Of a stretch of 64,000 nt of DNA, positions 5,204 to 64,000 are shown in pieces. Under the pieces are notes generated by a model, which had not been told where the DNA came from, searched no databases, and worked only from the letters and a program-made list of their open reading frames with translations. The position numbers were made by a program, and so were the translations under genes. This DNA comes from Actinernus sp. WN-2022. Its lineage: Eukaryota > Cnidaria > Anthozoa > Actiniaria > Actinernidae. How positions within the stretch are numbered: the first letter of the stretch is position 1; every line of letters starts with the position of its first letter. The DNA is taken from the NCBI GenBank assembly GCA_030867875.1, contig JAOWCC010000019.1, positions 106,706,047 to 106,770,046 on the forward strand, given 5' to 3'.

Positions 5204-5559
5204 GTTGGTGCCGTATCCATCTCCCCCATTTTGCCAAATTGCTGTGCAAGTGGTAATTGTAGGATTATACCTAATTTATCATTATCACTGATTGTCGTTA
5301 CAATTATTATTGCAAGGGGGCAGCAAACGAATGAGAGCCAAAACAAAGATTCGAAGCGGCTTTGCGCGTGTTCGTCCAAACTCACTATTTATACCTAAAA
5401 TTACATTGGTTGGTGTTTGTTCCAATAACTCAAACTTCAAAATGTCGATTTTTGTATTGGTCTTATTATTTCTGTAATAGTTGCAAGGAATCATTATGCA
5501 GTAGTAGTTGCAGTAGAATCTTTATCAGTTTACTGAGTGGAAAACATTATTACCGCCCG

Positions 5560-24300: not shown

Positions 24301-27300
24301 GTTGACATTACAAACATTAGTTAGATTGTTCTTGTGTTATATTTAACAAATAGATGTCATTTTGACATGCATATGCAAGTCCGTTAACATCACAAACATT
24401 AGTTAACATTACAAACAATAGTTAACATTACAAACATTAGTTGACATTACAAACATTAGTTAGATTGTTCTTGTGTTATATTTAACAAATAGATGTCATT
24501 TTGACATGCATATGCAAGTCCGTTAACATCACAAACATTAGTTAACATTACAAACATTAGTTAACATTACAAACAATAGTTAACATTACAAATATTAGTT
24601 GACATTACAAACAATAGTTAACATTACAAACATTAGTTAACATTACAAACAATAGTTAACATTACAAACATTAGTTAACATTACAAACAATAGTTAACAT
24701 TACAAACATTAGTTGACATTACAAACATTAGTAGATTGTTCTTGTGTTATATTTAACAAATCGATGTCATTTTGACATGCATATGCACGTCCGTTAACAT
24801 CACAAACATTAGTTAACATTACAAACATTAGTTAACATTACAAACATTAGTTAACATTACAAACAATAGTTAACATTACAAACATTAGTTAACATCACAA
24901 ACATTAGTTAACATTACAAACATTAGTTGACATTACAAACATTAGTTAACATCACACACATTAGTTAACATTACAAACATTAGTTAACATTACAAACATT
25001 AGTTAAAATTACAAACATTAGTTAACATTACAAACATTAGTTAGATTGTTCTTGTGTTATATTTAACAAATAGATGTCATTTTGACATGCATATGCAAGT
25101 CCGTTAACACCACAAACATTAGTTAACATTATAAACATTAATTAGTTAACATTACAAACATTAGTTAACACTACAAACATTAGTTAGATTGTTCTTGTGT
25201 TATATTTAACAAATAGATGTCATTTGGACATGCATATGCAAGTTCGTTAGCATTACAAACATTAGTTAACATTACAAACATTAGTTAACATTATAAACAT
25301 TAGTTAGATTGTTCTTGTGTTATATTTAACCAATAGATGTCATTTTGACATGCCTATGCAAGTTCGTATGAGCCCTAGCCAGTGATCACTGATTTAAAGG
25401 TCAAAGGGGGAAACAAAATGACCAACATAAAAAACAACATTAGGTATTAGCATCCGCCATTTTCATATATTAAGGGATCAAACTTCAATGACGTCATTGA
25501 AGTCACAAGCCAGTTCTAGTTCATTTGCTATGTTTTTATGCCAGCTCTACATAATAAAATATGTTTCAATAAGATTGCAAGGATCACATATCTGAAGCCT
25601 GAAAAATAACTGAAAAAATAAATACATTCAATGTTGACTCAAGTCATGTTCAAGTCATGTTAAACTCATTAGCATAAAGTGCCTTTATACATTTTAAAGC
25701 ATTATTTTATGGCAGCTCAGTGAGCGTTCATTAGAACAGTACAGTACTCACAAGTTTAATGTATTCCTTGACAACTTCTAATTGTGGTAATATTCCTTCC
25801 CTCCTACAGAATCAATGAAAAAACAGAATAATCTTACTGATCTCTTATTTACTGGAATACATGATGAACAGTTGTGGTTTCAGTACAATAGGGATGTACA
25901 GTACCGCCTGGAATTATAGGGACATTTACCGCGGCTGTGCCGCATGCAATGCCCGCGGTTTTACCGCGAAAAACCGCGGTCATTTTTGCGGTGACCGCGG
26001 TCACTCCTGAGGTCGCCGCGGTCACTTTTGAGATCGCCGCGGTCACTTTTGAGGTCGCCGCGGTAATCGTGCCGCGGTGATCATGCCGCGGCGCTAACCG
26101 CGACCGCATGTAACATCTACATGTACATCTCATACATTTTACTTTGAAGCAGTTGGCTTCGTAAGAGCGTGAGCGTGAACGGCGGTCTCGAGTAAGAAAG
26201 ACAACTTACGAAAGTTAACAAAAGATTGTTAGCGCGCCGTGTCTTACGAAATGCTTATTTTGAAGCAGTTGGCTTCGTTAGTAAATAAGAACGCGAACGG
26301 CGGTCTCGAGTAAGAAAAACAACTTACGAAAATTAACAGAAGATTATTAACGAGCCGTGTATTAAAAAATGCTTATTTTGAAGCAGTTGGCTTCGTTAGT
26401 TAATCAGAACGCGAACGGCGGTCTCGAGTAAGAAAGAAAACTTACGAAAATTAACAGAAGATTGTTAGCGTGCCGTGGCTTAAGAAATGCTTAAAAAGAA
26501 GCGGTTGGCTTCGTTACAGTATTGTGCAAAAGTCATGCAAACATATTTCGACGAATTTCGCTCTTTGTTCAGCGACATTTCGACGATTTGTCAAACGAAA
26601 ATTCGGACCGAGTTATCGAAGTATCGTGATCCGAAACGTGTCTGTTGATTGCACAATTACGTATTTTAACCTTTCTTTCACACAAGATTAACGCGTGACA
26701 AATTCGAATTCATAACAAACAGTTTTACAAACGTACGGTAAGATGGTTTTGGTAAATACCCTGCGTGCCAGAGGCGTCAAAAAGTCAAGATTCTTACTGC
26801 GCAGTATAATAAAAGTTCCTGTCAATCGTGAACTGTCAGCCAGACGCGTGTCTCATTTCTGACACAAATACCGCGGGGAAAGTAATTGCCATTTACGCGA
26901 ATTGACTGTTCTGATTCGATGCATTAAAGCTCTTAATTCAAAAGGAATTGCACTTTCCGAGTAGAAGTTTTCTGGTAAGAGTATAGAAGTTTTTGTACGT
27001 CTTTCAATATGACAAACGTTGCTTCAAAACTCTGTTGATGTTCTGTAAAAACATCAGACTGACACGTTCACGCCTGACTGATTGCACGTGGAAATTCAGA
27101 CTCCAAGAAGAGTTGAGAATTTAATATGCAAACATTTACAATTATTTCTGCCGAAACCTTTTGATACTAGTAACAAGACAAGGATCTGCCGTAAATAAGA
27201 AACTACACTGAAGCAAAAGTTTATTTGGTGTTATGCGTCGCTAGTTAATAAAAACGCCAACGGCGGTCTCGAGTAAGAAAGACAACTTACGAAAGTTAAC

Positions 27301-50512: not shown

Positions 50513-51456
50513 CCGAGAGAAGACTGGATCACGTGATCAAATACTCCCAGATTTTGGGAGTATTTTGTCACGTGATTTGGCGATCTAAGATGATTTATTA
50601 TTACTATTATTATTATTATTAGGGTAGAATAGCGTAGTTATAAGCACGACCACATCAGCAACGCTGTAAATTTATCGTGGGTAAATAAATATTATTATTA
50701 TTATTATTATTATGTACACGACGTAAATGAGATGTGCGGCGGTACCGTATACTGCAGGTTTGAGCCCAATTTGGCAAACTTGTTTTGGAGCAAATCAAAA
50801 CTATCAATTCGGGTAACTTGTTTTTTATAAATTTCATGGAAATTCGGTTAATAAAAACACCTTCACTACATTTTATTTTGCAAACTGGGTCGGGCTCTGA
50901 AGACGACACCTCACATACCTCCTCTTTATTATGTAAGCGGTGCCCCCCCCCCCCCCCCCGGTTTGAAGCTCAGTACATACAGGTCGCCAAGCGGTGCTAC
51001 AGACTACAAAGCTACGGTGGCAAATGTTGGGCTTTTGACGACTGAAATTGAAGATACTGGAATTGAAATGAAAAGAAATGTATAGACTGATCATCTGTGC
51101 CTCTGCTAATGGGTCTTGGGGTGATTTGAGAAAGTTCAAAGTGATTTTCAAGTCTTCAAGTGTTGACTAGCGACAACTGACAAGTATGAAAGTTTGAATT
51201 ATGTGAATAAAAACGGAAGCGAAAATTCACATTCATCTGTCCAGGAACGACTGACATTATACAAGGACAAAATTACATCAAAGTAAGCCAAGTTAACTTT
51301 TAATTTTTTATTTAATTGTTTTGTTTTTAATCCACTGAAATCCTTGGAAACTCGGTCGCATCACAGGAAGCCCAATGCCGGGGGGGGGGGGGGGTAATTA
51401 TTATCGGACTTTGTAACAGCGAACTGATTTTTACGTGTAAACTATCTCGAAAATGT

Positions 51457-51766
51457 AGTAGTAGTAGTAGTATAACTTTATTTAAGCACGCTAGCCCTGT
51501 CAACAGCAGCTGATTTACACAAGGGGCGTGACAGAAATATAAAATTTACAAAATATTAAAATATATTATGAATATAGATAAAAATAAAATGTTTGAATAT
51601 TACGTAATAATGATTAAATATTTTTATAGCTGGTATTTGTGAGCGGCAATTTTAGTCTTGAAAGAAGGGAATGAGTTGGAGTCCCTAATTTCGTTATGGA
51701 GCGAGTTCCATATTTTAGCCCCACTGTACGAGAAACTCTTTTTCATACTTTCGGTTTTGGGTATAT
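51457..51766 (-). mobile_element. 5'-truncated LINE inserted into fold-back arm
   Basis: The minus strand encodes a LINE RT C-terminal motif (FSYSGAKIWNSLHNEIRDSN then FKTKIAAH). Its 3' end is an ACT repeat at 51457-51472. The right arm of the fold-back gives the empty site (aaatgtcatatcttt). Confidence 0.75.
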
Positions 51767-51916
51767 CATATCTTTCTAAAAGAATGTCTTACTATTAAAG
51801 ATGTATACTTCACTGACCTTGTGTTGTTGTTTTTGACACTGTTTGCGATGATTTGGGGCTGTTTTAAGCCTTTCAAACACCGATTCCTCACCAAAGTTCA
51901 CCATAGTACAGTAAAA

Positions 51917-52120
51917 AGACTCCTGACACTATGGTGTGACAGGTACACACGAAAATACAGCAAATAGTCCACTTTCTTCCCCCTCCCTCGATGTTAATTT
52001 GTCCTGACACCGCTTCAAAGTGTAAATATGATTGGTTAACTCTTGCTTCCGGTTGTAATTCGGATTTTTCTGGGGAGGGGACGGGAGGGTTTGCCTGCCA
52101 CACCGTAGTGTCAGGAGTCT
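51917..52120. mobile_element. 204-bp element with terminal inverted repeats
   Basis: agactcctgacactatggtg is inverted at 52099-52120 (caccgtagtgtcaggagtct). Non-coding. Confidence 0.75.
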
Positions 52121-53025
52121 AACAGAAACCCGAAATGTTGTTTTAAATCGCCCCAATTAATTAAAAGAGTAGTTTTATTTAGAGTGGTACTCCAAATTTA
52201 TAGTTCACTTGTTGCCTGATAATGTGTCCCAAAGGAAATGGCGTTTAAAAGATGAAAGACGTCTGGGAAGTGTGATATTTCGAGGTAAACTCACGGCTGG
52301 TCGGTGTTGCCGAGCGAGGGACTTTCACTCCTTGTCAGAGGGTCTGAATGGGGCGGGGGGTCTACATGTCAGTTGTCAGTTAAAATTTTAGCCATTTGTC
52401 AGTTAGCCCTAGTTAATCATTACTAGAGAACATTTACAATGTTTGACCCAAAAAAAACTAATTTGTCAGTTGTCAGTTATTTTTAAGGGCGTTTGTCAGT
52501 AGCCAGTTAACCCCAATCAGACCCTCTTGTCATTTTTACTGTACTATGGTGAACTTTGGTGAGGAATCGGTTTTTGAAAGGCTTAAAACAGACCCAAATA
52601 ATCGCAAACAGAGTCAAAAACAACAACACAAGGTCAGTGAAGTATATATCTTTAATAGTAAGACATTCTTTTAGAAAGATATGACATTTCCGAGATATAG
52701 TTTACACGTAAAAATCAGTTCGCTGTTACAAAGTCCGATAATAATTACCACCCCCGCGGCATTGGGCCCCGTGAGGCGTGAGGCAGTTGATTCAAATCTT
52801 GTTCAAGTTGCCTTAAGAACTGGAATATCATTTACAGCTGCAATAGTTGCGTTCAGTTTTCTAGTTTTCGATTCATGTGTTTATATTGGGCATTCGTAAT
52901 TAGCGCTTCGCGCTACTCCCTTAGGAGTTGTTCAATGCTTAAAGCTTAGCGAAAGCATTTGCATATCACTTGACGCTAACCAGTTTCTAACTTGACCCGT
53001 TGTTACCGGGTCCTTGGTGCTTGTC

Positions 53026-53845: not shown

Positions 53846-54019
53846 CCGCTTAATAGCGAGAGGTACTGAACTATAAGAAAATTACCGCTAAACAGCAAGG
53901 AGTAATGATATGTATGTATAATGTATGAATATGACTGCTTGAGAGTGAGAAACGATGTAATGTATGAACATAATTAACCGCTTGATAGCGAGGAATAATG
54001 AAACGTACGAACATAACCG
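53846..54019. repeat. degenerate tandem repeat
   Basis: Units start accgctt/accgcta and contain agcga then taatgta and tgaacataa, 40-55 bp each, four to five copies with many changes. Confidence 0.55.
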
Positions 54020-54255
54020 CTAGTAGTATAGTCGGGATTAAAATGATACCACTTTTTCTTGCACAAGAAAACTCAAAAAGTTGTAATGTTATGGACGCCT
54101 TGTTTTCTTGCACAAGGGGCGTCATAAAGCGAATTCAGAAATCCACTTCATGACGCCCCTTGTGCAAGAAAAAAGGCGTCCATAACATTACGACTTTTTA
54201 AGTTTTTCTTGCACAACAAAAAGTTGTATCATTTTAATCCCGACTATACTACTAG
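54020..54255. repeat. fold-back at left border of virus-like element, about 105-bp arms
   Basis: Arms beginning ctagtagtatagtcgggatt are inverted around a 23-bp centre (aagcgaattcagaaatccac). Inside each arm are ttcttgcacaa and ggcgtccataacatta. It is either an unrelated hairpin element or derived from the element's terminal inverted repeat; the right end of the element would decide. Confidence 0.85.
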
Positions 54256-54302
54256 GGGTAACTAAGGGTCATTCAAAGTGTCACTAGACATTCTTGTACA
54301 TA

Positions 54303-54359
54303 AAATCCAACTTCAAACTTGAGTATCTGTTAGAGACATGATTATTATACTGTATATCG
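54303..54359 (+). promoter_or_regulatory. duplicated promoter-like box, copy 1
   Basis: Ends gattattatactgtatatcg, 12 bp before the start of the F-box/ankyrin gene. The same box occurs at 55085-55138. TATA-like core. Confidence 0.6.
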
Positions 54360-54371
54360 ATCTTTTCCACT

Positions 54372-55070
54372 ATGGATTATATATCGTGCCTCCCCATGGA
54401 AATTCTGACTAAGATCGTAGAGCATGCAGGTCCTACGTCATTCTCAAGCATTGCAAGGGTATCAAAACGCCTAAACGGTGCTGCATCTCTCGCGCGCTAC
54501 GAAAACGTAGATCAAGAGTTCCGCACGCGAGTTCTCACTTTCGGTCTTAGGTCTACTCACGACGACGACGATCGAAACAAAATGGCTAAGACTTTCGGCA
54601 TTTCCGCAAGCTACATCGACAATGGCTTTCCTCTCATCTACGCCAGTGAACATGGTAATCTTAACGTCATTAAGTGGCTCCTCAAGAACTTACGGTTCGA
54701 TGGAACGGATGGACAAATTGACCACATTCTATGTGCTGCCTGTAAGAATGGGCGTCTTGATATCGCTAAGTGGCTCACTAAGCACTTCCAGTTCACCAAG
54801 GAGGATAAAGCCGTTGCGTTCACTATACTAGATGCCAGTATGAATGGTCATCTTAACGTCATTAAGTGGCTCATTCAACGTTTTAAGATAACCATAGAGT
54901 ATGAATACGTTCATCATGCTCTACTATGTGCTTGTAGCAATGATCATCTTGATACCGCTAGGTGGCTCGTTAAGTGGCTCATTAAGAATTCCCATCTCCC
55001 CCTAGAGGCCGAAAATAACCTACTAAATTACTATGTGAATGCTTATGCTGCCATACAGGAATCCGATTGA
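54372..55070 (+). CDS. F-box and ankyrin-repeat protein of the virus-like element
   Basis: 232 residues, intron-free. Residues 1-40 look like an F-box (CLPMEILTKIVEHA then ARVSKRLNG), the module that binds SKP1 in SCF ubiquitin ligases. Residues about 85-215 carry ankyrin-type repeats of the sort seen in large DNA viruses (ASEHGNLNVIKWLL, CKNGRLDIAKWL, SMNGHLNVIKWL, SNDHLDTARWL). In poxviruses F-box/ankyrin proteins recruit host proteins for degradation, with the two modules in opposite order. Here the same role is an inference. It shares a promoter-like box with the next gene, which ties it to the element rather than the host. A chance host gene is less likely given the lack of introns. Confidence 0.8.
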   Translation: MDYISCLPMEILTKIVEHAGPTSFSSIARVSKRLNGAASLARYENVDQEFRTRVLTFGLRSTHDDDDRNKMAKTFGISASYIDNGFPLIYASEHGNLNVIKWLLKNLRFDGTDGQIDHILCAACKNGRLDIAKWLTKHFQFTKEDKAVAFTILDASMNGHLNVIKWLIQRFKITIEYEYVHHALLCACSNDHLDTARWLVKWLIKNSHLPLEAENNLLNYYVNAYAAIQESD

Positions 55071-55084
55071 ATCCAACTGCACCT

Positions 55085-55138
55085 AAAAATCCAAACTTGA
55101 AGTATATGTTAAAGGAATGATTATTATACTGTATATCG
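55085..55138 (+). promoter_or_regulatory. duplicated promoter-like box, copy 2
   Basis: Contains gattattatactgtatatcg identical to copy 1, preceded by a similar acttgaagtat/gtta segment. It lies 90 bp before the next start codon, so transcription may begin between them. Confidence 0.6.
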
Positions 55139-55227
55139 TCACCGAATGGTATTAGTATATATTCTTTATTCCACGACATTAGCATTCGTTGTCATCTTAG
55201 TACGCATTAATACCATACAGATCGAAC

Positions 55228-55674
55228 ATGTCAAAGAAGAACTCGAATGTAGACGCCGCAATGCCTGAGACGACTTGTGATTGGTTGATGAGAGGGAAGG
55301 ACTCAAAATGCCCAAAGAGGATTTCGAAGACAACGAAGTTCTGTTCCCAGCACAACTACCAAATCTCAAAAGGCTGTGCCCCACTCATGCCATGCTCGAA
55401 GTGCGGTAAAGGATGTCGTACTGATTACGAGCTTTGCTCAGGATGCGACCGTCTCTCCATCAAGATGAAGTGTCCCGGTGTCTATGTAAAACGCGCTAAG
55501 AAGTCCAGCAAGACGCTAGAGGGTCCAAGAAAGGAGGAGCCAAACGTGGTGGAACCGGAGGTAGCATTGCCCGCAGAACCAAGAGTGGTGGAACCAGAGG
55601 AAGGTCTCGGAGAGTCTCTCAACCATGCGCTCAACGAGGTGTTGGCTGCCTTGAGGAGCGAGAAGGACGATTAG
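55228..55674 (+). CDS. Cys-rich zinc-binding-type protein of the virus-like element
   Basis: 148 residues. The N-terminal half has two metal-site patterns: C-x9-C...FC-x2-H (CDWLMRG...KFCSQH) and a treble-like PCSKCGKGC followed by CSGC. After residue 90 it becomes acidic and proline-rich with two similar segments (NVVEPEV, RVVEPEE), then a short helical tail. No known family recognised. The pattern suggests a small nucleic-acid- or protein-binding zinc protein. It is followed by the first hairpin. Confidence 0.65.
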   Translation: MSKKNSNVDAAMPETTCDWLMRGKDSKCPKRISKTTKFCSQHNYQISKGCAPLMPCSKCGKGCRTDYELCSGCDRLSIKMKCPGVYVKRAKKSSKTLEGPRKEEPNVVEPEVALPAEPRVVEPEEGLGESLNHALNEVLAALRSEKDD

Positions 55675-55685
55675 GAATAGCCACG

Positions 55686-55760
55686 AAAAAAAAAAAAAAA
55701 GAAGAATGAAGAAGGTCGTTGCGTGGCCCTCTTCATTCTTTTTTTCTTTTTTTTTTTTCT
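55686..55760. terminator. poly(A)-stem-poly(T) hairpin 1
   Basis: A15, then gaagaatgaagaaggtc, a short loop and gccctcttcattc followed by T-rich runs. The transcript folds into one long hairpin in either direction. It is located between the Cys-rich gene (stop 55674) and the TFIIB-like gene (start 55791). A twin is at 63587-63658. Confidence 0.65.
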
Positions 55761-55790
55761 ATTAAACGTATAAACATCTATAGTTGTATC

Positions 55791-56729
55791 ATGGACGAGC
55801 TAGTCAGATTGTTTGGTCCTGGAATTTGTAGAAGCCTGAATATCAAACCACAAGTGGAACATATTAACACCAGTGAAACATGTCCTGATTGTCTCTGCCC
55901 CTTTGAAATACAAGGAACGGAATTCGTGTGTCCCACCTGTGGTCTTGTTTCCGAGGTTGAACCATGTGAAGAAACTAAGATCGACATCATTACTACTCGA
56001 CTGCGTATAGTAGGTCCGGACGGATTTCAGTATCAAAGTGATCTAGACCGAGCAAAACCAAAGCAAAGCGATAACACGGAACTACAACGACGAACGCTCC
56101 TACAAGAACTACGAGCATACAACGCTATTTACAAACAAAGTTGTGACCTATCGTTCCCTACGAACACTTTAGGAATCGTAGCCGACGCATTTATCCAAGT
56201 AATGAAAGTGCATCCCAAGCGTAGCGATGCTAAGAGACATATTCTAGCTGCTCTACTCTACCATGCATGCATACAATGTGGATTCGTCCGATCTAAAGGT
56301 GAGGTTGCTCGCTTCATGCAACTAAGCAACAAAGGCATCCATAGAGGAGAGGTCTTTATACGTTCTCTATGTGACGACGATGAGATCGATGTAGACTTGG
56401 ATGCCGAGCGCATAGTTCCTCACATTGCAACGACTTTCCTTAAACTCGATCCTCAAGGAGTACTTATAGACGCTCAACAAATAGTCCACGAGGTTGTTAC
56501 TATGGCAATAGAAAACAATGTAGGCAGATCGGTAATTAAGACGAAAGTTGTTGGAGCAAGTTACGAGGTGCTACGTCGTTTAGGATCGTCTATGTCTCTT
56601 AACGAGGTCGTCAAACGTTGTGACGTATTTGGAAATTCAGTCAAGCGTTTTGTGAAGAAGTTGTCTTCTTACCATTCCCACTTCGAACCAATCTACACTA
56701 AGCATGGGCTAACTAGCAGTAGGACTTAG
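55791..56729 (+). CDS. TFIIB-like transcription factor of the virus-like element
   Basis: 312 residues. Residues 31-50 form a zinc ribbon (CPDC...CPTCGLV). After a linker, residues about 95-300 are helical, with the look of two cyclin folds (RRTLLQELRAYNAIY, AALLYHACIQCG, VVGASYEVLRRLG), the TFIIB core layout. TFIIB recruits RNA polymerase to promoters; viral versions are known in several nucleocytoplasmic large DNA viruses. The start was set at the ATG at 55791, because the upstream open frame only reads through the hairpin. A divergent archaeal/viral-type TFB is an equivalent description. Neither host-like introns nor a complete host-type B-finger is seen. Confidence 0.72.
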   Translation: MDELVRLFGPGICRSLNIKPQVEHINTSETCPDCLCPFEIQGTEFVCPTCGLVSEVEPCEETKIDIITTRLRIVGPDGFQYQSDLDRAKPKQSDNTELQRRTLLQELRAYNAIYKQSCDLSFPTNTLGIVADAFIQVMKVHPKRSDAKRHILAALLYHACIQCGFVRSKGEVARFMQLSNKGIHRGEVFIRSLCDDDEIDVDLDAERIVPHIATTFLKLDPQGVLIDAQQIVHEVVTMAIENNVGRSVIKTKVVGASYEVLRRLGSSMSLNEVVKRCDVFGNSVKRFVKKLSSYHSHFEPIYTKHGLTSSRT

Positions 56730-56780
56730 CGAAGTGGAAGTGAGAGCCATGTTCATTCCTTTCATAGGAAACGTTGATTC

Positions 56781-57077
56781 TTACATTCCAAGTTTTTCTC
56801 GCATTTCCTTTTGCACTTCTTGCTTGAGTTCGGCTCGAATGCTTTTTTCACCTATGGAAGCCTTGCGACGAATTTCAGACCTCATGATCTCATACTTATT
56901 CGCTTCGTTCAGGATGAGACTGTATTCGGAGTCGGATATGTTTTCATCGCGTAAGGCCTTCGATACTAGATCACGAATCGTATTGATTTTCGCCTTTGCC
57001 AACATAGTTGTCCTTTCATGCTTAGAAACCTTCATTCCTAACTTCTTAGCTCCAAGGGTCGTAGATGCTGAAATCAA
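56781..57077 (-). CDS. helical protein of the virus-like element, 5'-truncated
   Basis: 98 residues on the minus strand, mostly helical and charged (KHERTTMLAKAKINTIRDLV, DENISDSEYSLILNEANKYE). I recall similar C-terminal halves of longer, N-terminally hydrophobic proteins in cnidarian genomes, so this looks like the tail of such a protein. There is no ATG near the 5' end: the frame stays open upstream through about 57112 before a stop and begins here only by a TTG. It faces the next gene head to head. Confidence 0.5.
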   Translation of the reverse strand: MISASTTLGAKKLGMKVSKHERTTMLAKAKINTIRDLVSKALRDENISDSEYSLILNEANKYEIMRSEIRRKASIGEKSIRAELKQEVQKEMREKLGM

Positions 57078-57083
57078 TCCACA

Positions 57084-58835
57084 TTGGGGTGTGGGGTGTG
57101 GAACATTAATTTATTTTTCCATGGGGAAACCTACCAGGTGTTCACAGATGCAGGCCTCCCTACGAAGGCAGGTGGAGGTCAGCTAAGGGTCTTGCAGGGG
57201 CGCGCAGGCAAGGCGCTTGACCTAGCCCTTGGCACCAAAACAGTTTATGAGGGGGTACTATTCGCGCGGAAGCACAAAGGTCTTTCCAAACATGCTTGGG
57301 TAGAAGCTGAGGAAAATAAAAAGGTCGCAGCCCTGAATACAAATCTATTAGCGAAGTTCGAGAAACGATACCCACATGCAGATCTTCACAAGTTCTATGT
57401 CTCTACGGAAGTGAACGGTCCAGGTAAATATTCGACGAGTATTTGGTTTCGAGATGGAGATTCTAGCTATGTCGTTTACGGCGATGATGTCTCAAAGTTA
57501 CCTGCAGTCACTCAAAGACGCATCGATAATGCGTTGTGGGATGTGCATAAAGGTTTCCCATCTACGTTGACCCTAGACAGGAGTGCGAAGTATCCTATTA
57601 CAGCAGTTCCTTCTACTGGACCGGCACAAGATATCGATCTCACTAATCTATGGATATATGCCACCCCAAAGAATAAGTTCGAAGCAGGCGTTCCAAATAT
57701 ATTCAAGGAGACCGTTGTAAAGCATACGACAGCAAATGAGTCCTACCATTGGTTACATGGTCCGGATTTCCACTACTGGCCTCAACAACTTAATTTTGCA
57801 ACGTGGTGTGCAACTTCTGGATGTGGAGTGTCATTGTTTGATCCTATTTTCAAAACGTATCCACCAGTCGTTCAGGGGTTCCTACGATTCCATGTTTATT
57901 TCACGATACGAAGAATTCTACGTGAACTTGGGGGTACTCATGGAGTTCCTTTACCTGGTAACTCTAATTTCAAGCAAATGGATAACGCCTATAACAAATC
58001 AGCTCTTGAGAAATTGTGCATCGAATTTGGCATATCTCGAACACCAGATTTCCGATGGCACGGAGGTAGGAATAATGGACTAGGAGATATATTCCTTTTG
58101 TACCCAGGTTCGACAGGATACGTAAACGTCCATGGAGTCCGAAGCTATGACAAAGGTGCAACCACATGGCCTCAGAAATATAATTTATTTGCAGACCAAG
58201 GAGGTAAGGAGGATCAGGGTGATCTTGTGGCCTTCATTAGGAACGATGAACATGAAGGAAAGCAATACAATTGGTTTACGCCACCAATCGGAAAGGGTTT
58301 GACAGATGTTGGATTGGGTAGGTTGAATAGATCTGTCGAGGCTTTTGGACATTGCATGCTTGGTGCTCAAGCCGATTTGAACGGATCCATCATAGATAGC
58401 CATAACGTCAAAGAAAAGTTTAAGATCTTAGTCGAAGATGCTATTCTCGAAAACGACTTAGTGGTGAGCTACAATAACTATCTTACTGCTATAACGAGGA
58501 CGCATAAGAGGCTCGATCTAGCAATAGCTGTAGGCGTGCGATTATTGCCAAGCGATCTAGTGTACTATCTTGGTAAGAAAGATGGCTACAGGAATCCAAT
58601 CCCGAAAGCTACGAAAGATATGGTGCTAGGCACTAACGACATCAATGCAGAAGGTAAAGGACATCCACCTCTTCTTATGGAAGGACCATCAGATAAGAAA
58701 TCGGTGCAACCTCTCGAGAAACAAGTTCCTGTACCAAAGGCAAAGGCAAAGGCAAAGGCTGTCTCACAACATGAGATCAATCTCGCAGTGACATCCATTG
58801 CCGCAGCTGGAATCGCATGGATGTTGTTTCGTTAA
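57084..58835 (+). CDS. large conserved-looking protein of the virus-like element, start missing
   Basis: 583 codons open, but there is no in-frame ATG until about residue 297, so the 5' end is lost, frameshifted or spliced. The ATG at 57121 is out of frame. Landmarks: NFATWCATSGCGVSLFDPI, FLRFHVYFTIRRILREL, LGRLNRSVEAFGHCMLGAQ, then a lysine/alanine stretch (KAKAKAKA) and a short C-terminal hydrophobic helix (LAVTSIAAAGIAWML). No enzyme motif seen. The membrane-anchored C-terminus and position among structural genes suggest a minor virion protein (inference). The stop overlaps the stop of the convergent gene within GTTAAC. Confidence 0.65.
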   Translation: MGCGVWNINLFFHGETYQVFTDAGLPTKAGGGQLRVLQGRAGKALDLALGTKTVYEGVLFARKHKGLSKHAWVEAEENKKVAALNTNLLAKFEKRYPHADLHKFYVSTEVNGPGKYSTSIWFRDGDSSYVVYGDDVSKLPAVTQRRIDNALWDVHKGFPSTLTLDRSAKYPITAVPSTGPAQDIDLTNLWIYATPKNKFEAGVPNIFKETVVKHTTANESYHWLHGPDFHYWPQQLNFATWCATSGCGVSLFDPIFKTYPPVVQGFLRFHVYFTIRRILRELGGTHGVPLPGNSNFKQMDNAYNKSALEKLCIEFGISRTPDFRWHGGRNNGLGDIFLLYPGSTGYVNVHGVRSYDKGATTWPQKYNLFADQGGKEDQGDLVAFIRNDEHEGKQYNWFTPPIGKGLTDVGLGRLNRSVEAFGHCMLGAQADLNGSIIDSHNVKEKFKILVEDAILENDLVVSYNNYLTAITRTHKRLDLAIAVGVRLLPSDLVYYLGKKDGYRNPIPKATKDMVLGTNDINAEGKGHPPLLMEGPSDKKSVQPLEKQVPVPKAKAKAKAVSQHEINLAVTSIAAAGIAWMLFR

Positions 58836-59956
58836 CGTCGTTTGTATTGCTCTATCGTGATCACCACTATTGCTACGATGAATAACCAAACGTTCTGTGC
58901 TAGTACTCCCAGAGCTTTACCAGCCATAGTAAATATGAAACTCGCAATCGATCCAATCATTCCAGGTAGGATCTGTCCAAGTTTCTTTCCCATTTCTTTC
59001 AACAACCCCCCAGTCGTTTGCAATCCCTTCTTTACTGCATCTGCTGCTTTATCAATACCAGTCTTTATTGGTTTCGGTAAGGATCTCGACAACAGGGAAA
59101 CTATCGTACTAACGATAGCGCCAATAGAAGTTACCACTGCAAGAACGGTCATTCCATGCTTTCTAAAAATGTATTTGATCCTTTCACGTAGCGACATACG
59201 TTCTAGTATGGCTTCTTCTTGACGTTCGAGTAATTCTATTTCGTTATAGATGTGTACTTTCTCTTCCTTAGCCGCTTCCTTCTGGTCCTCAGTTGACGTT
59301 GAGTTTAGAAGTATGCTATCTTCTACTTTGAGATGTTCGGCGGCCTTTTCTTGACCTTGGATGACTTGTTCTTCTCTTTCTGCATCCGTAGGGCCTAGGG
59401 CAAATTTGAGATCCTTACCCATACTTTGATATCTTTCGCCCTTCACTGTGGTCAAAGGTATGGGCTTCTCTTTACTTCCAAGTACGTGAAGATAGATTCT
59501 ACCCAGTTCCTTATTGGCCTCCCATATTCCAGTTATCTCAAGGACTCCTCCACGAGTCCCTACATCCGCATAGTGTTTCCATACAGTATCGAATAGCATT
59601 TGTTTCATTTCATCCGATGTGCCTGTTTTGAAGACTACGCGGCGATCGCTAAATTTCGGATGTTTGATTCTATCCTCATCCATCAATTGCTCTCTAGAAA
59701 GGTCCGAGACTTCCGGCTCGGTGAGTCCGTCTACGTAAGCATCGTCTACGGTAAACGAGGTTTCCCGATTCTTTGGTCGAGCACCTTCCTTGGAGAAGTC
59801 GCGTCTAGTTTTCAGGTTTAATGATTCACTCGGATCCACATTCGTAGAGTCTGACGCCAATTTCCGTGCTTCTTCATTGACAGTATCATCGTTGTCGTAG
59901 TCTCTTCCTCTTTCAGCTTCATCAGTTCTTTCATCATACCTACCCTCAGAGGCCAT
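58832..59956 (-). CDS. membrane-associated protein of the virus-like element
   Basis: 374 residues starting MASEGRYDERTDEAE. An acidic, disordered N-terminus (1-110) leads to a soluble region, then a helical, charged segment (about 190-260), then an extended hydrophobic/amphipathic tail: TVLAVVTSIGAIVSTIVSLL, a Lys/Ala/Gly helix, ILPGMIGSIASFIFTMAGKA and LFIVAIVVITIEQYKRR. The tail resembles membrane-active virion proteins in layout only; no family can be named. Its start lies 34 bp from that of the capsid candidate, so the two share a divergent promoter. Tail-to-tail overlap with the large protein. Confidence 0.7.
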   Translation of the reverse strand: MASEGRYDERTDEAERGRDYDNDDTVNEEARKLASDSTNVDPSESLNLKTRRDFSKEGARPKNRETSFTVDDAYVDGLTEPEVSDLSREQLMDEDRIKHPKFSDRRVVFKTGTSDEMKQMLFDTVWKHYADVGTRGGVLEITGIWEANKELGRIYLHVLGSKEKPIPLTTVKGERYQSMGKDLKFALGPTDAEREEQVIQGQEKAAEHLKVEDSILLNSTSTEDQKEAAKEEKVHIYNEIELLERQEEAILERMSLRERIKYIFRKHGMTVLAVVTSIGAIVSTIVSLLSRSLPKPIKTGIDKAADAVKKGLQTTGGLLKEMGKKLGQILPGMIGSIASFIFTMAGKALGVLAQNVWLFIVAIVVITIEQYKRR

Positions 59957-59990
59957 GTTAAACATATCTACATATATAGTTATATTCAAC
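59957..59990. promoter_or_regulatory. 34-bp divergent promoter region
   Basis: aacatatctacatatatagt lies between the two divergent ATGs. It is TATA-rich on both strands and must serve both genes, or their start sites lie within the opposing coding regions. Confidence 0.6.
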
Positions 59991-61226
59991 ATGATCTCAT
60001 CAATATTGGATCCCACACAAGTACGAAGAGAGCCTCATGCACTCAAGGCTCCACGAGACTTGTATAGGAAAACTTTCACTCGATCATCTGCCAATCCAGG
60101 TGAGACTCTATACGTAGAAGTCCCAAAGCTAGCAGAAGATGTAGTACTAGTACCTGGTAGCTTAGCGCTATTGGGCGACATCGTACTATCTGGTGGACAT
60201 GCGAATAACAGAGTCGTTTCGAACGTTGGACGCTGCTTGGTCATGCGTAGAATCTGTAGGATGGGAGCTGAAACAGTAGAAGACCTTGTCAGGCCAGACC
60301 TCCTACAAACATACTCCGATGTATACCTATCTACGCAGGAGAGAGAGTCTAGAATACAACAAGGCATTCAATCAGAGAACTTGAATAAGCTACGATCGAA
60401 AGCTGGTGACGCAAGTACTTCATCTGCTGCAGACAACGCGCTCCTAACTGCATGTGGTTCCAAGTATAGGATTCCATTAGATGTTGACATTCTGACACAA
60501 CATGGAGTTCTATATCCACATGCCTTAGAAAGTATCATTACATTCGAGTTGACTCTAGCGCCTGCCAACGAGGTTGTAATTGGATCGGATACTACGAAGA
60601 TAGGTACGTACCAACTTACCAACATCCAACTAGAATACGAAGCAATCAGGAACGAAACGCTGGCTAGTAATGCACTTCACAAATATGAAATAGGTACTGC
60701 ATTCCTATACAACTACGCTGTTCACTTCAAAACAGTAGATATCGCTAAAACATCTGATACTTTGATATCTCAAAACGTTAATGTTCCACGACGATCCTTT
60801 GCTGGACTACTTCTACTATTCATAGATCCACCTACCATTGGCACGCGAGATAGTGAAGCATTCTCGAATCCCGATATTTCGAAGGTAGAAGTAGATGTCA
60901 ACGGGATTCCCAACAGACTCTTTCCAAGCGGCATGCTTCCCCTAGATTTCTGGGAGGCTGCAAGAGGTTGGTTTGGTACACCCAATACTTCCATGACTCC
61001 AAAGAAGTTCTTTGAAAATAGATTCGCTATCCTAATCGATTGTCGCACAGCAAAGGATTCCACCGTTCATGGTGATGGCTTGGCACAAACCGGCAGTGGA
61101 AAGGACATCGACATTCGCATACATAGGACTGCTAAGGGAAGTGGAAATGTGAAAATGCACATCTATGTCCTTGCGGATGCTCAGGTCACGATATTGAACA
61201 GATCTCTGCAGAGTATATTATACTGA
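59991..61226 (+). CDS. probable major capsid protein (double jelly-roll type) of the virus-like element
   Basis: 411 residues. Largely beta-rich with a pattern I associate with double-jelly-roll capsid proteins of Polinton-type elements and adintoviruses: YRIPLDVDILTQHGVLYPHA, TFELTLAPANEVVIGSD, TNIQLEYEAI, then NVPRRSFAGLLLLFIDPPT, DISKVEVDVNGIPNRLF and a closing GNVKMHIYVLADAQ. In that fold a strand phrase of the type 'hydrophobic-V-x-G-x-P' near the C-terminal jelly roll is common. It is immediately followed by the packaging ATPase, the expected neighbour. The assignment is by pattern and context; a structure prediction would settle it. The first ATG of the open frame (59955) would overlap the divergent gene's start codon, so the ATG at 59991 is preferred. 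Confidence 0.65.
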   Translation: MISSILDPTQVRREPHALKAPRDLYRKTFTRSSANPGETLYVEVPKLAEDVVLVPGSLALLGDIVLSGGHANNRVVSNVGRCLVMRRICRMGAETVEDLVRPDLLQTYSDVYLSTQERESRIQQGIQSENLNKLRSKAGDASTSSAADNALLTACGSKYRIPLDVDILTQHGVLYPHALESIITFELTLAPANEVVIGSDTTKIGTYQLTNIQLEYEAIRNETLASNALHKYEIGTAFLYNYAVHFKTVDIAKTSDTLISQNVNVPRRSFAGLLLLFIDPPTIGTRDSEAFSNPDISKVEVDVNGIPNRLFPSGMLPLDFWEAARGWFGTPNTSMTPKKFFENRFAILIDCRTAKDSTVHGDGLAQTGSGKDIDIRIHRTAKGSGNVKMHIYVLADAQVTILNRSLQSILY

Positions 61227-61846
61227 TGGATTCTCTCGTAGAGCACGTACCATTCAACGCACTCATAGTCGGTCCAACGAATTGTGGGAAGACTGCATTT
61301 CTCATAGAACAACTTCGTGGATCATTTCGTGGTAAGTTCGATTACATAGTACTGATTTGTCCTACGTATGCCCACAACAAAACTTATCGTGGATTCGCAA
61401 ATCGAGATCCTCATTTCTTCGTCATATCGCCACCACAAGATGCCATCGATGCTACTTTGAGTATTTGCGCAACATTTTGGTCAGGTACCAATACTCTATT
61501 GATTCTCGATGATTGCGCCGCATCGAAGGACGTCAAGAAACGAACTGACAAGCTAGTGGACTTAGCCTTTTCTGCACGACATATAGGGATTTCCGTTTGG
61601 GTGCTGTCCCAACAATTAACGAGCATATGTAAGCCCTTCCGTGAGAACGTAGCTATCGTAGTAGCATTCCATACAGCATCGGCCGTAGATGGTAAAAAGA
61701 TATTTGAGGATTATGGAGGCTCACAAGAATGTAAAGAGTTACAAACGATACTTGGATCCCATAAGTTCGCTCGCATGTGCTTCTGTCTACGCCATCCTTT
61801 CGAGGTAGTGTTAGAGCTCCCAGCATCTATAACATATTATGACTGA
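61226..61846 (+). CDS. A32/FtsK-HerA-type genome-packaging ATPase
   Basis: 206 residues. Walker A VGPTNCGKT at 15-23, Walker B TLLILDDC at 90-97, and a following SVWVLSQQLTSI that fits the conserved Gln motif of this ATPase group. The short length is typical of the viral DNA-packaging ATPases of Polintons, adintoviruses and large DNA viruses. It powers DNA entry into the capsid. The ATG overlaps the capsid gene's TGA (TGATG), so the two are probably translated from overlapping transcripts; its own TATA-like sequence is tatattatac just upstream. Confidence 0.87.
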   Translation: MDSLVEHVPFNALIVGPTNCGKTAFLIEQLRGSFRGKFDYIVLICPTYAHNKTYRGFANRDPHFFVISPPQDAIDATLSICATFWSGTNTLLILDDCAASKDVKKRTDKLVDLAFSARHIGISVWVLSQQLTSICKPFRENVAIVVAFHTASAVDGKKIFEDYGGSQECKELQTILGSHKFARMCFCLRHPFEVVLELPASITYYD

Positions 61847-62390
61847 TAAGGAAATACTCGAGATATTCGGTGAGGACGTAACAGGCCCACCACCAACCGA
61901 TCTAGACATTACGTCAGACAATCGCGAATCACTTTCGATCTTAGCCGCAACAGGCGTAACGAAAGAATACTTAGGTAAAAACTTTTCCCTAGGAGACATC
62001 TCTAGACTTCCTGAGAAAGAGGTAGACAAGTTGTATAGGAGGTATCAGGCCGTCCTAGCTCAGCAAGTAACGAAAGGCTTAGTCGACGGTGTGACACGTC
62101 TAGCTACCCGCCTAGTTGCCTACCTAGTACCAATAGATTCTCAAGAAGCCCTGATCAAGGACCTACAAGAAGACCCTCTAGTCCGCAACGAAATCAGTGC
62201 TGCAACTGGTCTACTAGCGCTCAAAGCAGGTCGCCTTGTAGCTCTAGCTAGCGTCCTATTCCACATATCTGGTCACGTAGTCATTCCTGGTACAACTGTT
62301 GAACCTCCACATATACCTACTATATCGAATCAAGATGGAAGGACAGACGGATCAGATAACTGCGAATCCTCCGACGACTGTACCAACTAA
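61839..62390 (+). CDS. uncharacterised protein of the virus-like element
   Basis: 183 residues; overlaps the ATPase gene end by 8 bp. Helical; contains the phrase PIDSQEALIKDLQEDPLVRN, which I recall as a recurring motif (P-x4-L-x2-DL-x2-DP) in a family of unknown function in cnidarian genomes, and a hydrophobic segment (LVALASVLFHISGHVV). Acidic Ser/Asp-rich end. Function unknown; position argues for a virion or assembly role. Confidence 0.65.
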   Translation: MTDKEILEIFGEDVTGPPPTDLDITSDNRESLSILAATGVTKEYLGKNFSLGDISRLPEKEVDKLYRRYQAVLAQQVTKGLVDGVTRLATRLVAYLVPIDSQEALIKDLQEDPLVRNEISAATGLLALKAGRLVALASVLFHISGHVVIPGTTVEPPHIPTISNQDGRTDGSDNCESSDDCTN

Positions 62391-62691
62391 GAAAGGAAAA
62401 AATCCAAAGCGTGTTGCAGCAGGAAAATTAGCTTGGGAGAAGGTCACTGCCCGTGCAAAAGAAGCTCAAAAGATGGAGATAGAACGTGAAAATGAACCGT
62501 CCAAAGAAACTGACGTAGAGAAAGGTCGGTTCGAAAGCCTGACTATCCTCGCAGTCATTGGTACTGGCGCTACATTGTTTGGCACGTACTTTGCATACAA
62601 GAAGTACGTAGATGGCAATAAGCGTGTTGCCACCGTTAGCACGACACAACCTGCAGCTCCGGCAAAGCCAACGGCACTAGACATGGAGTAA
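62335..62691 (+). CDS. small basic membrane protein of the virus-like element
   Basis: 118 residues from ATG 62335, overlapping the previous gene by 56 bp. A basic segment NPKRVAAGKLAWEKVTARAK is followed by one membrane helix (LTILAVIGTGATLFGTYFAY). The KRVAAGK motif seems a family signature (from memory). A candidate DNA-contacting minor capsid or membrane protein. Confidence 0.65.
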   Translation: MEGQTDQITANPPTTVPTKKGKNPKRVAAGKLAWEKVTARAKEAQKMEIERENEPSKETDVEKGRFESLTILAVIGTGATLFGTYFAYKKYVDGNKRVATVSTTQPAAPAKPTALDME

Positions 62692-62728
62692 CACTTAAAG
62701 ACTCGAGACCATAGTAGTATATATCTAG

Positions 62729-62950
62729 ATGGAGAAGGAATTGACGAAGACGGCAACCGATGCAGCCATAATCGTTGGACTCGCTTCTAGTATTGGGTGG
62801 ATCGTAAAAAAGACTACCAAGGAATCTATGCTTAGCGATCCTTCTTCTTCCCTAGTGAATTACGCAAAGTGGACTGCCGTGATACTTGGTAGCTTATACG
62901 CAAAGCAATATCTTGAGAAACAACTTGAGAAAGAAAAGACCAAACCGTAA
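62729..62950 (+). CDS. small two-helix membrane protein of the virus-like element
   Basis: 73 residues with two hydrophobic segments (AAIIVGLASSIGWIV and WTAVILGSLYA) and a charged end. Preceded by tagtagtatatatctag, a TATA-like box 1 bp from the ATG region. Its TAA overlaps the next ATG (TAATG). Confidence 0.6.
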   Translation: MEKELTKTATDAAIIVGLASSIGWIVKKTTKESMLSDPSSSLVNYAKWTAVILGSLYAKQYLEKQLEKEKTKP

Positions 62951-63378
62951 TGGCGGCAGCAATTGGAATGGCCATTTTCGGGGCTATCTTGAATGCAACG
63001 GCATTTACTGGTGGTGGCATACTAGCTAGAATGCTTGGAAAGGATGGTGATGTAGATGCAGAACGAGAGAGACACGATAGGGCCACCGAAAAACTAGAAC
63101 GTGAAATGAAAGCGTATAGAATCAAACGTCAAAGCTTATATGACTATGCACAAGAGCAGGAAGGTCTTGAACGCAAAGCACACAACGATCAAAGAGATAC
63201 CAACGAAGCCTTAGTGCGATCCGATAAGTTACGTAAAGAGCTAAAACGGCTCAAAGAGATGAAAGAACCCCGCTTATCTGACTACTACAAACCCTCAAAC
63301 AATCAGAAGACTGGCGAGTTGCTCTACGTTGGTGGTGGAATGATAGGCGTTGGATACGCTATTAGTAAATGGATATAG
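62950..63378 (+). CDS. small protein with coiled coil and two hydrophobic ends, virus-like element
   Basis: 142 residues. An N-terminal Ala/Gly-rich hydrophobic region (GMAIFGAILNATAFTGG), a charged coiled coil (about 35-105), then PRLSDYYKPSNNQKTGELLY and a short C-terminal hydrophobic helix (GGGMIGVGYAI). The layout suggests a virion membrane or minor capsid protein. I recall comparable proteins (AFTGG...DFY-PS--QK-GELL) repeatedly in cnidarian genomes but cannot verify this. Confidence 0.65.
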   Translation: MAAAIGMAIFGAILNATAFTGGGILARMLGKDGDVDAERERHDRATEKLEREMKAYRIKRQSLYDYAQEQEGLERKAHNDQRDTNEALVRSDKLRKELKRLKEMKEPRLSDYYKPSNNQKTGELLYVGGGMIGVGYAISKWI

Positions 63379-63383
63379 ATACT

Positions 63384-63586
63384 ACTACTAAGCTACTACT
63401 AAGCTACTACTAAGCTACTACTAAGCTACCCCTAAGCTACCCCTAAGCTACTACTAAGCTACCCCTAAGCTACTACTAAGCTACCCCTAAGCTACTACTA
63501 GCTACTACTAAGCTACCCCTAAGCTACTACTAAGCTACTACTAAGCTACTACTAAGCTACTACTAAGCTACTACTAGGTTACTACT
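63384..63586. repeat. 11-bp tandem array between small-gene cluster and integrase
   Basis: About 18 copies of taagctactac or taagctacccc, irregularly alternated. It lies right of the 142-residue gene and directly before hairpin 2. Confidence 0.92.
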
Positions 63587-63658
63587 AAAAAAAAAAAACG
63601 GAAAAAAAAAAGGAAGGAATGAGGCCTGGTTCTCATTTCTTCCTTTTTTTTTTTTTTT
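63587..63658. terminator. poly(A)-stem-poly(T) hairpin 2
   Basis: A12, cgg, A10, ggaaggaatgag, loop gcctggtt, ctcatttcttcc, then T15. The same design as hairpin 1 (A run, GA-rich stem, short G/C-containing loop, T run) with different bases. It separates the small-gene cluster from the integrase. Confidence 0.7.
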
Positions 63659-63688
63659 CATCTGTTGAAGGTTAGAATGTATAGATGT

Positions 63689-64000
63689 ATGATGGATTCT
63701 AAACTTGCGAATATCTTCTATGGTCCTATGGGCTATTGGAAAGGTCACTCCGCAATTGGCAAGCTATCGGTAGCAGCGAAAGCATCAGAAGACGTAGCTA
63801 GGAGTTGGTTGGAAAAGCAATCTATGTGGCAAATATATCTACCACCACCAAAACACATTCCACGACCGCATTGGACTGTATCGAAACCAAATGAAGTCCA
63901 CCAAGCTGATTTGATATTTCTACCACACGATCGACCTGGGCGTGGACGGAAGCTATACAAGTACGCATTGGTAGTAATCGATGTAGCTTCTCGATACAAA
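63689..64000 (+). CDS. rve-type integrase, N-terminal part (cut by window end)
   Basis: 104 codons, open to the window edge. After an N-terminal helical region (KGHSAIGKLSVAAKASEDVA) and WLEKQSMWQIYLPPPKHIPR comes the start of the retroviral-type integrase core: NEVHQADLIFLP (first catalytic Asp, residue 74) and YKYALVVIDVASRYK (second beta strand). The second Asp and the Glu lie beyond the window. Polintons and adintoviruses carry this type of integrase beside capsid and ATPase genes. The start was taken at the first of two adjacent ATGs. Confidence 0.85.
   Translation, partial: MMDSKLANIFYGPMGYWKGHSAIGKLSVAAKASEDVARSWLEKQSMWQIYLPPPKHIPRPHWTVSKPNEVHQADLIFLPHDRPGRGRKLYKYALVVIDVASRYK

Follow-up and report, generated by a model that had tools for sequence, protein, structure and literature searches.

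In this study, we analysed 64,000 nucleotides (the window) of the cnidarian Actinernus sp. WN-2022 (G000:C888:106706047-106770046; genome of 1.39 Gb in 1772 contigs) and found one integrated element of the Polinton/Maverick class whose terminal repeats are, in their outermost part, palindromes with arms that co-vary between copies. Co-varying hairpin ends are unexpected for a virus of the Polinton class. Taken as a whole, the element is probably one copy of an integrating DNA virus of this class that has multiplied strongly in recent times, with hairpin ends subject to arm-to-arm correction, a transcription programme of its own and an F-box gene as cargo. It spans 14,720 bp, from window position 54022 to position 5288 of the adjoining stretch on the right (L009, whose position 1 is window position 63454), and its left two thirds (54022-64000) lie inside the window. 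Its right end, at window coordinate 68741, is given by the terminal repeat and the target site duplication CCGCT, which stands at 54017-54021 on the left and at L009 5289-5293 on the right. The gene list covers 13,276 of the 14,720 element bases, whereas three frames of at least 130 aa overlap window positions 1-53000, which bears out the compact coding block, unlike its flanks, described in a first-pass annotation of this DNA.

We assign the element to the Polinton class because the Polinton definition comprises a family B DNA polymerase (PolB), an rve integrase, an ATPase, a capsid protein, terminal repeats and a target duplication, all of which were found. The capsid candidate (59991-61226, plus strand) is predicted to adopt a double jelly-roll fold, the nearest structures to the model being the capsids of Paramecium bursaria chlorella virus 1 (PBCV-1) and iridoviruses. 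It has 1125 relatives in the protein relative search; a Capsid_N match is found in 10 of 20 aligned relatives and not in the window protein itself. The A32-type packaging ATPase (61226-61846, plus strand) matches Pox_A32 with E 1.3e-11, and the integrase, 354 aa when completed in L009 (63665 to L009 1276, window coordinate 64729, plus strand; its first third inside the window), matches rve (PF00665) with E 5.5e-10. The PolB gene (64726-68031, minus strand, 1101 aa) adjoins the integrase gene and matches DNA_pol_B_2 with E 6.7e-12; all three matches are above the Pfam cut-offs. What we take to be the exonuclease and polymerase motifs of PolB follow in order, and what we take to be the D,D,E residues of the integrase are present. 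By analogy, PolB would be protein-primed. Its segment NLCLWRCLA near the N-terminus presumably resembles a vOTU protease segment. Such a segment is described for Polinton polymerases in the accessible part of PMC11071308.

The first-pass annotation had proposed a Polinton-like core with unusual extra genes, and the F-box/ankyrin, Cys-rich, TFIIB-like, capsid candidate, ATPase and integrase genes all lie where it had placed them. The core it recognised is now joined by PolB, and the protein it took for a capsid does predict a double jelly-roll; its remark on unusual genes is borne out by the TFIIB-like and F-box/ankyrin genes. The rightward extension which it recommended yielded the complete rve integrase, the family B polymerase and the right end of the element. 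Of the polymerase and protease that it supposed to lie outside the window, perhaps to the right, the polymerase was indeed found directly beyond the edge and an adenain-type protease was not recognised. With PolB encoded just outside the window, its idea of a distinct lineage defined by the absence of a polymerase no longer stands. The genes are linked rather than scattered: PolB lies about 2.8-3.3 kb from the ATPase at those places common to both listings that were checked. The copy number of the element and the hairpin nature of its ends went beyond what the first-pass annotation could reveal.

The inner left terminal inverted repeat (54246-54313, plus strand, 68 bp) is a 100% inverted match to L009 5073-5140, and the outer left repeat (54022-54258, plus strand) is a terminal palindrome. 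The first 232 element bases are self-complementary at 89%, and the left end folds as DNA at -98.3 kcal/mol, compared with a shuffle mean of -20.1 (z -25; none of 200 shuffles as good). The ends were surveyed in 40 further copies (80 stretches; single copies are denoted by c and a number), hand-picked from the 150 scored of 4585 ATPase candidates; together with the window copy this makes 41. The outermost part of the terminal repeats is a palindrome of about 236 bp in 52 of 70 recognised ends, and a shorter class of ends, 138-139 bp, is palindromic too. End lengths within one copy can be unequal (237/138 in c21, 139/237 in c35 and 236/73 in c02).

The hairpin arms co-vary between copies, the loop orientation is strongly biased, and the two ends of one element agree. 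The alignment comprised 52 termini of 225-245 bases from the 70 recognised, which gave 39 distinct rows, and the pairing scheme of 111 pairs was taken from one tested row, the left end of c02. Watson-Crick cells make up 95.4% in the 39 distinct hairpins, compared with a mean of 87.8% (maximum 89.6 in 300) when arms are dealt among copies, and compensated cells number 244 as against a mean of 76 (maximum 114). When partners are slid by 1-3 columns, 29-37% are paired and 2-5 pairs have more than one pair type. Among the 50 pairs that vary, the paired fraction is 89.8% versus 72.6% shuffled (maximum 76.1); one pair occurs as all four Watson-Crick types (GC 9, AT 13, TA 9, CG 6, other 2). Several blocks of adjacent bases differ jointly on both arms, which suggests that one arm was copied from the other. 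Loop orientation is the same in 52 ends and opposite in 3; 15 of the 70 ends lack a readable loop. Full-length hairpins of the same element are 99.6% alike in the median (n=20), 9 of 20 being identical, as compared with 90.0% for different elements (n=653), of which 2 are identical.

Both termini were recognised in 29 of the 41 copies, and all 29 carry an identical 5-bp duplication, so terminal inverted repeats with 5-bp target duplications, a Polinton feature for which the first-pass annotation had allowed 5-6 bp, are present at exactly 5 bp; none extends to 6 bp (0/29). Among these sites 27 different 5-mers occur, and pairing ends of different copies as a control gave a 5-bp match in 4 of 812 cases. 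When the left end of c05 was located separately, TGACA was found on both sides, which raises the count to 30 of 30 copies with an exact duplication. Copies c18 and c19 have one target site in common and appear to be duplicates; TTCTC is found at both c16 and c29, where the letters outside it differ. The 12 copies outside the 29 have an extra left segment (c04, c05, c08, c09, c26, c27) or one end unreached or unrecognised (c12, c23, c31, c33, c39, c40), and for a further copy (L012) only the right end is available. At G000:C398:38268132-38419888, seven like copies stand 20-29 kb apart; this cluster looks like later local duplication, because the two copies in it with read ends share the target site AATTG.

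Genome-wide, there are 660 forward and 659 reverse hits of the inner repeat (41 bases, at most 3 mismatches), with 0 and 0 for the backwards control. On contig C235, among the matches listed, our own count of exact inner repeats gives 8 unpaired ones and 22 plus/minus pairs with a spacing of about 15.0-15.7 kb. Some 650 elements of about 15 kb each would amount to some 10 Mb of the genome. The candidates for ATPase (4585, of which 150 were scored) and PolB (6665, of which 42 were scored) may hint at more diverged copies. Apparently, the element has inserted itself hundreds of times recently.

Could this abundance stem from a dead element that was spread by host segmental duplication and not by integration? 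The common target site of c18 and c19 inside the seven-copy C398 cluster and the presence of some broken frames would agree with such a history. However, 27 different duplications among 29 copies exclude segmental duplication for every copy with a target site of its own, all 150 scored ATPase frames are without stop, and pN/pS, the ratio of nonsynonymous to synonymous polymorphism, is low for the capsid and ATPase genes. In a sample of eight loci, the best ATPase matches, pooled pN/pS is 0.07 for the capsid (7 of 8 copies read), 0.21 for a 183-aa protein (61839-62390, plus strand; first 150 codons, 8 copies) and 0.43 for a 73-aa protein with hydrophobic stretches (62729-62950, plus strand; 8 copies). 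Frames for the capsid, the ATPase, the 183-aa protein (180 in one), a 118-aa protein with a hydrophobic stretch (62335-62691, plus strand; 115 in one) and the 73-aa protein are present in the five loci read in the correct direction (L001, L002, L004, L006 and L007). We consider passive spread of a dead element scarcely credible.

The palindromic ends themselves can be explained in more than one way. Polinton-family replication proceeds by strand displacement with a protein-primed polymerase. Genomes of the present element would be copied in this manner, and displaced single strands, which carry a self-complementary end, could fold into a hairpin. Repair synthesis might then rewrite one hairpin arm from the other without turning the loop, rare loop inversions and end shortening being by-products; the integrase would join element copies to host DNA, and particles, to judge from the genes, could be formed. 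Arm rewriting on a folded end would produce co-varying arms without loop turning, whereas true hairpin transfer would turn the loop. We put forward only tentatively, as somewhat improbable in its full form, a protein-primed virus that is still inserting, that unites Polinton priming with parvovirus-like termini, and whose ends fold to hairpins in a single-stranded stage and have one arm rewritten. An ordinary Polinton might instead have palindromic ends as a binding site of integrase or terminal protein, kept symmetric by selection, with no hairpin ever formed. Integrases and terminal proteins do act at ends, and the near-fixed loop orientation of 52 to 3 is expected where no hairpin is resolved; but palindromy over about 110 pairs exceeds the need of a binding site, the joint block differences suggest arm-to-arm copying, and the shorter 138-139 bp ends are palindromic as well. 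We regard selection on a binding site as a serious possibility, if a doubtful one. Rolling-hairpin replication as in parvoviruses, in which the 3' end folds back to act as primer and the loop is inverted when the terminus is resolved, would account for so strong a terminal palindrome (z -25) and for the occurrence of both loop orientations. It is nevertheless very unlikely, as 52 to 3 is far from 1 to 1, PolB is of Polinton type, and no rolling-circle endonuclease family was matched among the frames scanned with Pfam. Flip and flop ends like those of adeno-associated virus (AAV), a candidate raised by one inverted loop, were rejected by the same survey; AAV-style replication is unsupported because the loop is almost never inverted.

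Several observations weigh against our overall reading of an amplified virus with corrected hairpin ends. An adenain-type protease was not recognised, as no peptidase family appeared up to E 1 with Pfam among 16 inputs (15 different frames), and a minor capsid protein was not identified among the frames of the element. The only frame modelled for the latter role, a 583-aa frame of a conserved family (57084-58835, plus strand; hydrophobic C-terminal helix; 344 relatives in the protein relative search), has no ATG before codon 299 in the window copy and gave a poor structure model (predicted local distance difference test, pLDDT, 39.9); its Foldseek list, with nothing at E <=0.001, is meaningless because the model is poor. 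The PolB survey scored 42 of 6665 candidate places, the window copy and 41 others. In the 41 others the match starts at residue 12 or 13 of the query, and the open frame measures 1184-1252 aa in 40 and 1135 aa in one, compared with 1143 aa in the window copy. The window copy thus appears to have a frame break upstream of PolB, separating a 114-aa frame (minus strand, reaching 68315, overlapping PolB in another frame), because 40 of the 41 other places have a longer open frame; TAG also occurs inside 2 of the 42 polymerase places. The pN/pS of the ATPase (0.11, 8 copies) is biased low, since the loci were chosen as best ATPase matches. As to the hairpins, the pairs with at least two types (27) and the extra types (33) match the maximum reached in 300 shuffles (means 18.6 and 21.3) and hence stay within this control; the covariation figures are not probabilities, because relatedness is disregarded in the shuffling and a single row supplied the scheme. 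Pairing fails at a few positions in many or most copies; at one of them, 32 of 39 have C opposite T. The right hairpin of the window copy measures 161 bp with its loop inverted, and the overall loop orientation argues against self-primed hairpin transfer occurring regularly.

Neither the capsid nor the 583-aa protein has a relative in a viral contig collection, which is silent on hosts outside it. Against PDB sequences, the profiles of these two proteins reached E 0.19 at best, and PolB had no match up to E 0.1.

The left part of the element carries the cargo and some of the proposed transcription signals. The F-box and ankyrin repeat protein (54372-55070, plus strand, 232 aa) matches Ank_2 with E 1.2e-21, and F-box-like (3.3e-4) and F-box (5.4e-4) just under the Pfam cut-offs; it may redirect a host ubiquitin ligase. 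Its gene is variable cargo: the left ends of c21 and c40 lack it, c02 and c10 carry another version of 201 aa, c11 and c05 have it twice, and it is shortened in c08 (131 aa), c31 (152), c37 (168) and c34 (193). For this reason the left end is a site of gene gain and loss. The Cys-rich protein (55228-55674, plus strand, 148 aa) has no Pfam match; its frame measures at least 140 aa in 37 of 41 left stretches, and of the other four the c11 stretch covers the gene only partly. The TFIIB-like protein (55791-56729, plus strand, 312 aa) matches TFIIB in Pfam (E 2.2e-4) and NCBIfam (7.5e-4), both below the curated cut-offs, and human TFIIB in the PDB (E 0.0032). A CxxC-x12-CxxC ribbon is visible by eye, the Pfam zinc-binding match reaching only E 0.28. 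The single relative found, P0241 (43% identity in the protein relative search), as against 1125 for the capsid and 344 for the 583-aa protein, makes us read this gene as a rare addition; faster evolution could also explain the single relative, because the search needs shared words. Median ratios of nonsynonymous to synonymous substitution rates (dN/dS) are 0.57 for the F-box gene (243 pairs), 0.71 for the Cys-rich gene (511) and 0.40 for the first 130 codons of the TFIIB-like gene (368); these crude values fit weaker constraint on the left genes.

A 14-base motif, AGTATMTGTTARAG, is a proposed early promoter element. It occurs exactly before the F-box gene (54322-54335, plus strand), before the Cys-rich gene (55101-55114, plus strand) and twice on the minus strand before PolB, and nowhere else in the window or L009. 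At up to 2 mismatches its frequency is unremarkable (window 5 versus 2.71 expected, a count reached in 9 of 100 shuffles; L009 2 versus 0.34 expected, reached in 8 of 200). An exact match is present in 39 of the 41 left stretches, c23 and c39 being the exceptions, and in 36 of the 41 right stretches, where c24, c28, c34, c37 and c40 lack it; this is a weak sign of function because the copies are closely related. Structures of A-run, hairpin and T-run part the early genes, the late block and the integrase. One of them, terminator-like, lies between the Cys-rich and TFIIB-like genes (55686-55758; by eye in 39 printed of 41 copies), and a second leads from the small late genes to the integrase (63587-63657). 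TATA-like letters are seen by eye directly before the ATG of late genes. A virus-specific transcription programme, which the TFIIB-like protein and the repeated upstream motif may serve, is plausible, with the TFIIB-like gene heading the late block.

The remaining frames of the element are a 98-aa frame with a TTG start (56781-57077, minus strand), a protein with a hydrophobic C-terminal half that is divergent to the capsid gene (58832-59992, minus strand) and a 142-aa protein with hydrophobic ends (62950-63378, plus strand). The starts of the capsid gene and its divergent neighbour overlap at 59955-59992, where the DNA is AT-rich and near-identical on both strands, and the two frames can start with similar letters (MLNISTYIVIFNM / MLNITIYVDMFNM). 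An 11-bp tandem repeat, CTACTACTAAG / CTACCCCTAAG, follows the 142-aa frame (63380-63587, plus strand). Outside the element, GC content drops to about 0.25 at 21000-25000 and the GC skew there is strongly negative, unlike the remaining window. Minus-strand frames with a repeated peptide (KHKSISQNTNQYPKTQINIP-like) at 452-1108 are probably a minisatellite. Inverted repeats (155 and 62 nt, with 96-97% complementarity) lie nested at 51387-52755 and are perhaps a fold-back or DNA transposon. To the right of the element, an oxidoreductase-like host frame (named by eye) lies in two pieces at L010 1581-2892. Rfam found nothing in the window at gathering scores.

To our knowledge, the replication of Polinton ends has been little tested. 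A host with about 650 like copies, exact duplications and a record of arm covariation provides a natural data set on end replication. A search of the open-licence literature, outside whose scope most subscription papers lie, turned up no description of Polintons with hairpin termini. Should the ends really fold in this way, protein-primed replication and hairpin termini would be compatible, which bears on the relationship of bidnaviruses and parvoviruses; the element would then represent the sort of replication form that one might seek as an intermediate if bidnaviruses arose, as proposed, from a parvovirus and a Polinton. The accessible text of PMC11071308 places Polintons, as is thought, near the root of several eukaryotic virus groups.

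With known Polintons and Mavericks the element shares PolB, the rve integrase, the A32-type ATPase, the double jelly-roll capsid, the terminal inverted repeats and the 5-bp duplication; it differs in its hairpin-forming ends, the TFIIB-like gene and the F-box/ankyrin cargo, and in that a protease was not recognised. Cnidarian capsids are described, in the part of PMC10120064 available, as the sole metazoan ones outside the main Maverick-Polinton cluster, and a Hydra capsid, in that of PMC4028283, as matching PBCV-1 VP54 only. The predicted PBCV-1-like capsid fold, compared by fold and not by a tree, perhaps fits such cnidarian Polintons. The Stylophora coral adintovirus (StCAV), as far as the excerpt of PMC11071308 goes, has a separate terminal protein gene, which the separate frame upstream of PolB in the window copy recalls; we set such a gene aside as copy-specific, the frame here looking like a break in the window copy when 40 of 41 other scored places are open for longer. 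According to the accessible portion of PMC4061559, bidnaviruses likewise have terminal repeats and a PolB of Polinton origin, but no hairpins are formed by these inverted repeats. Parvoviruses such as AAV and poxviruses, according to the available text of PMC11575299 and PMC8956199, have palindromic or hairpin ends as the present element does; the latter differs from them in its replication genes and in showing no loop inversion near 1 to 1.

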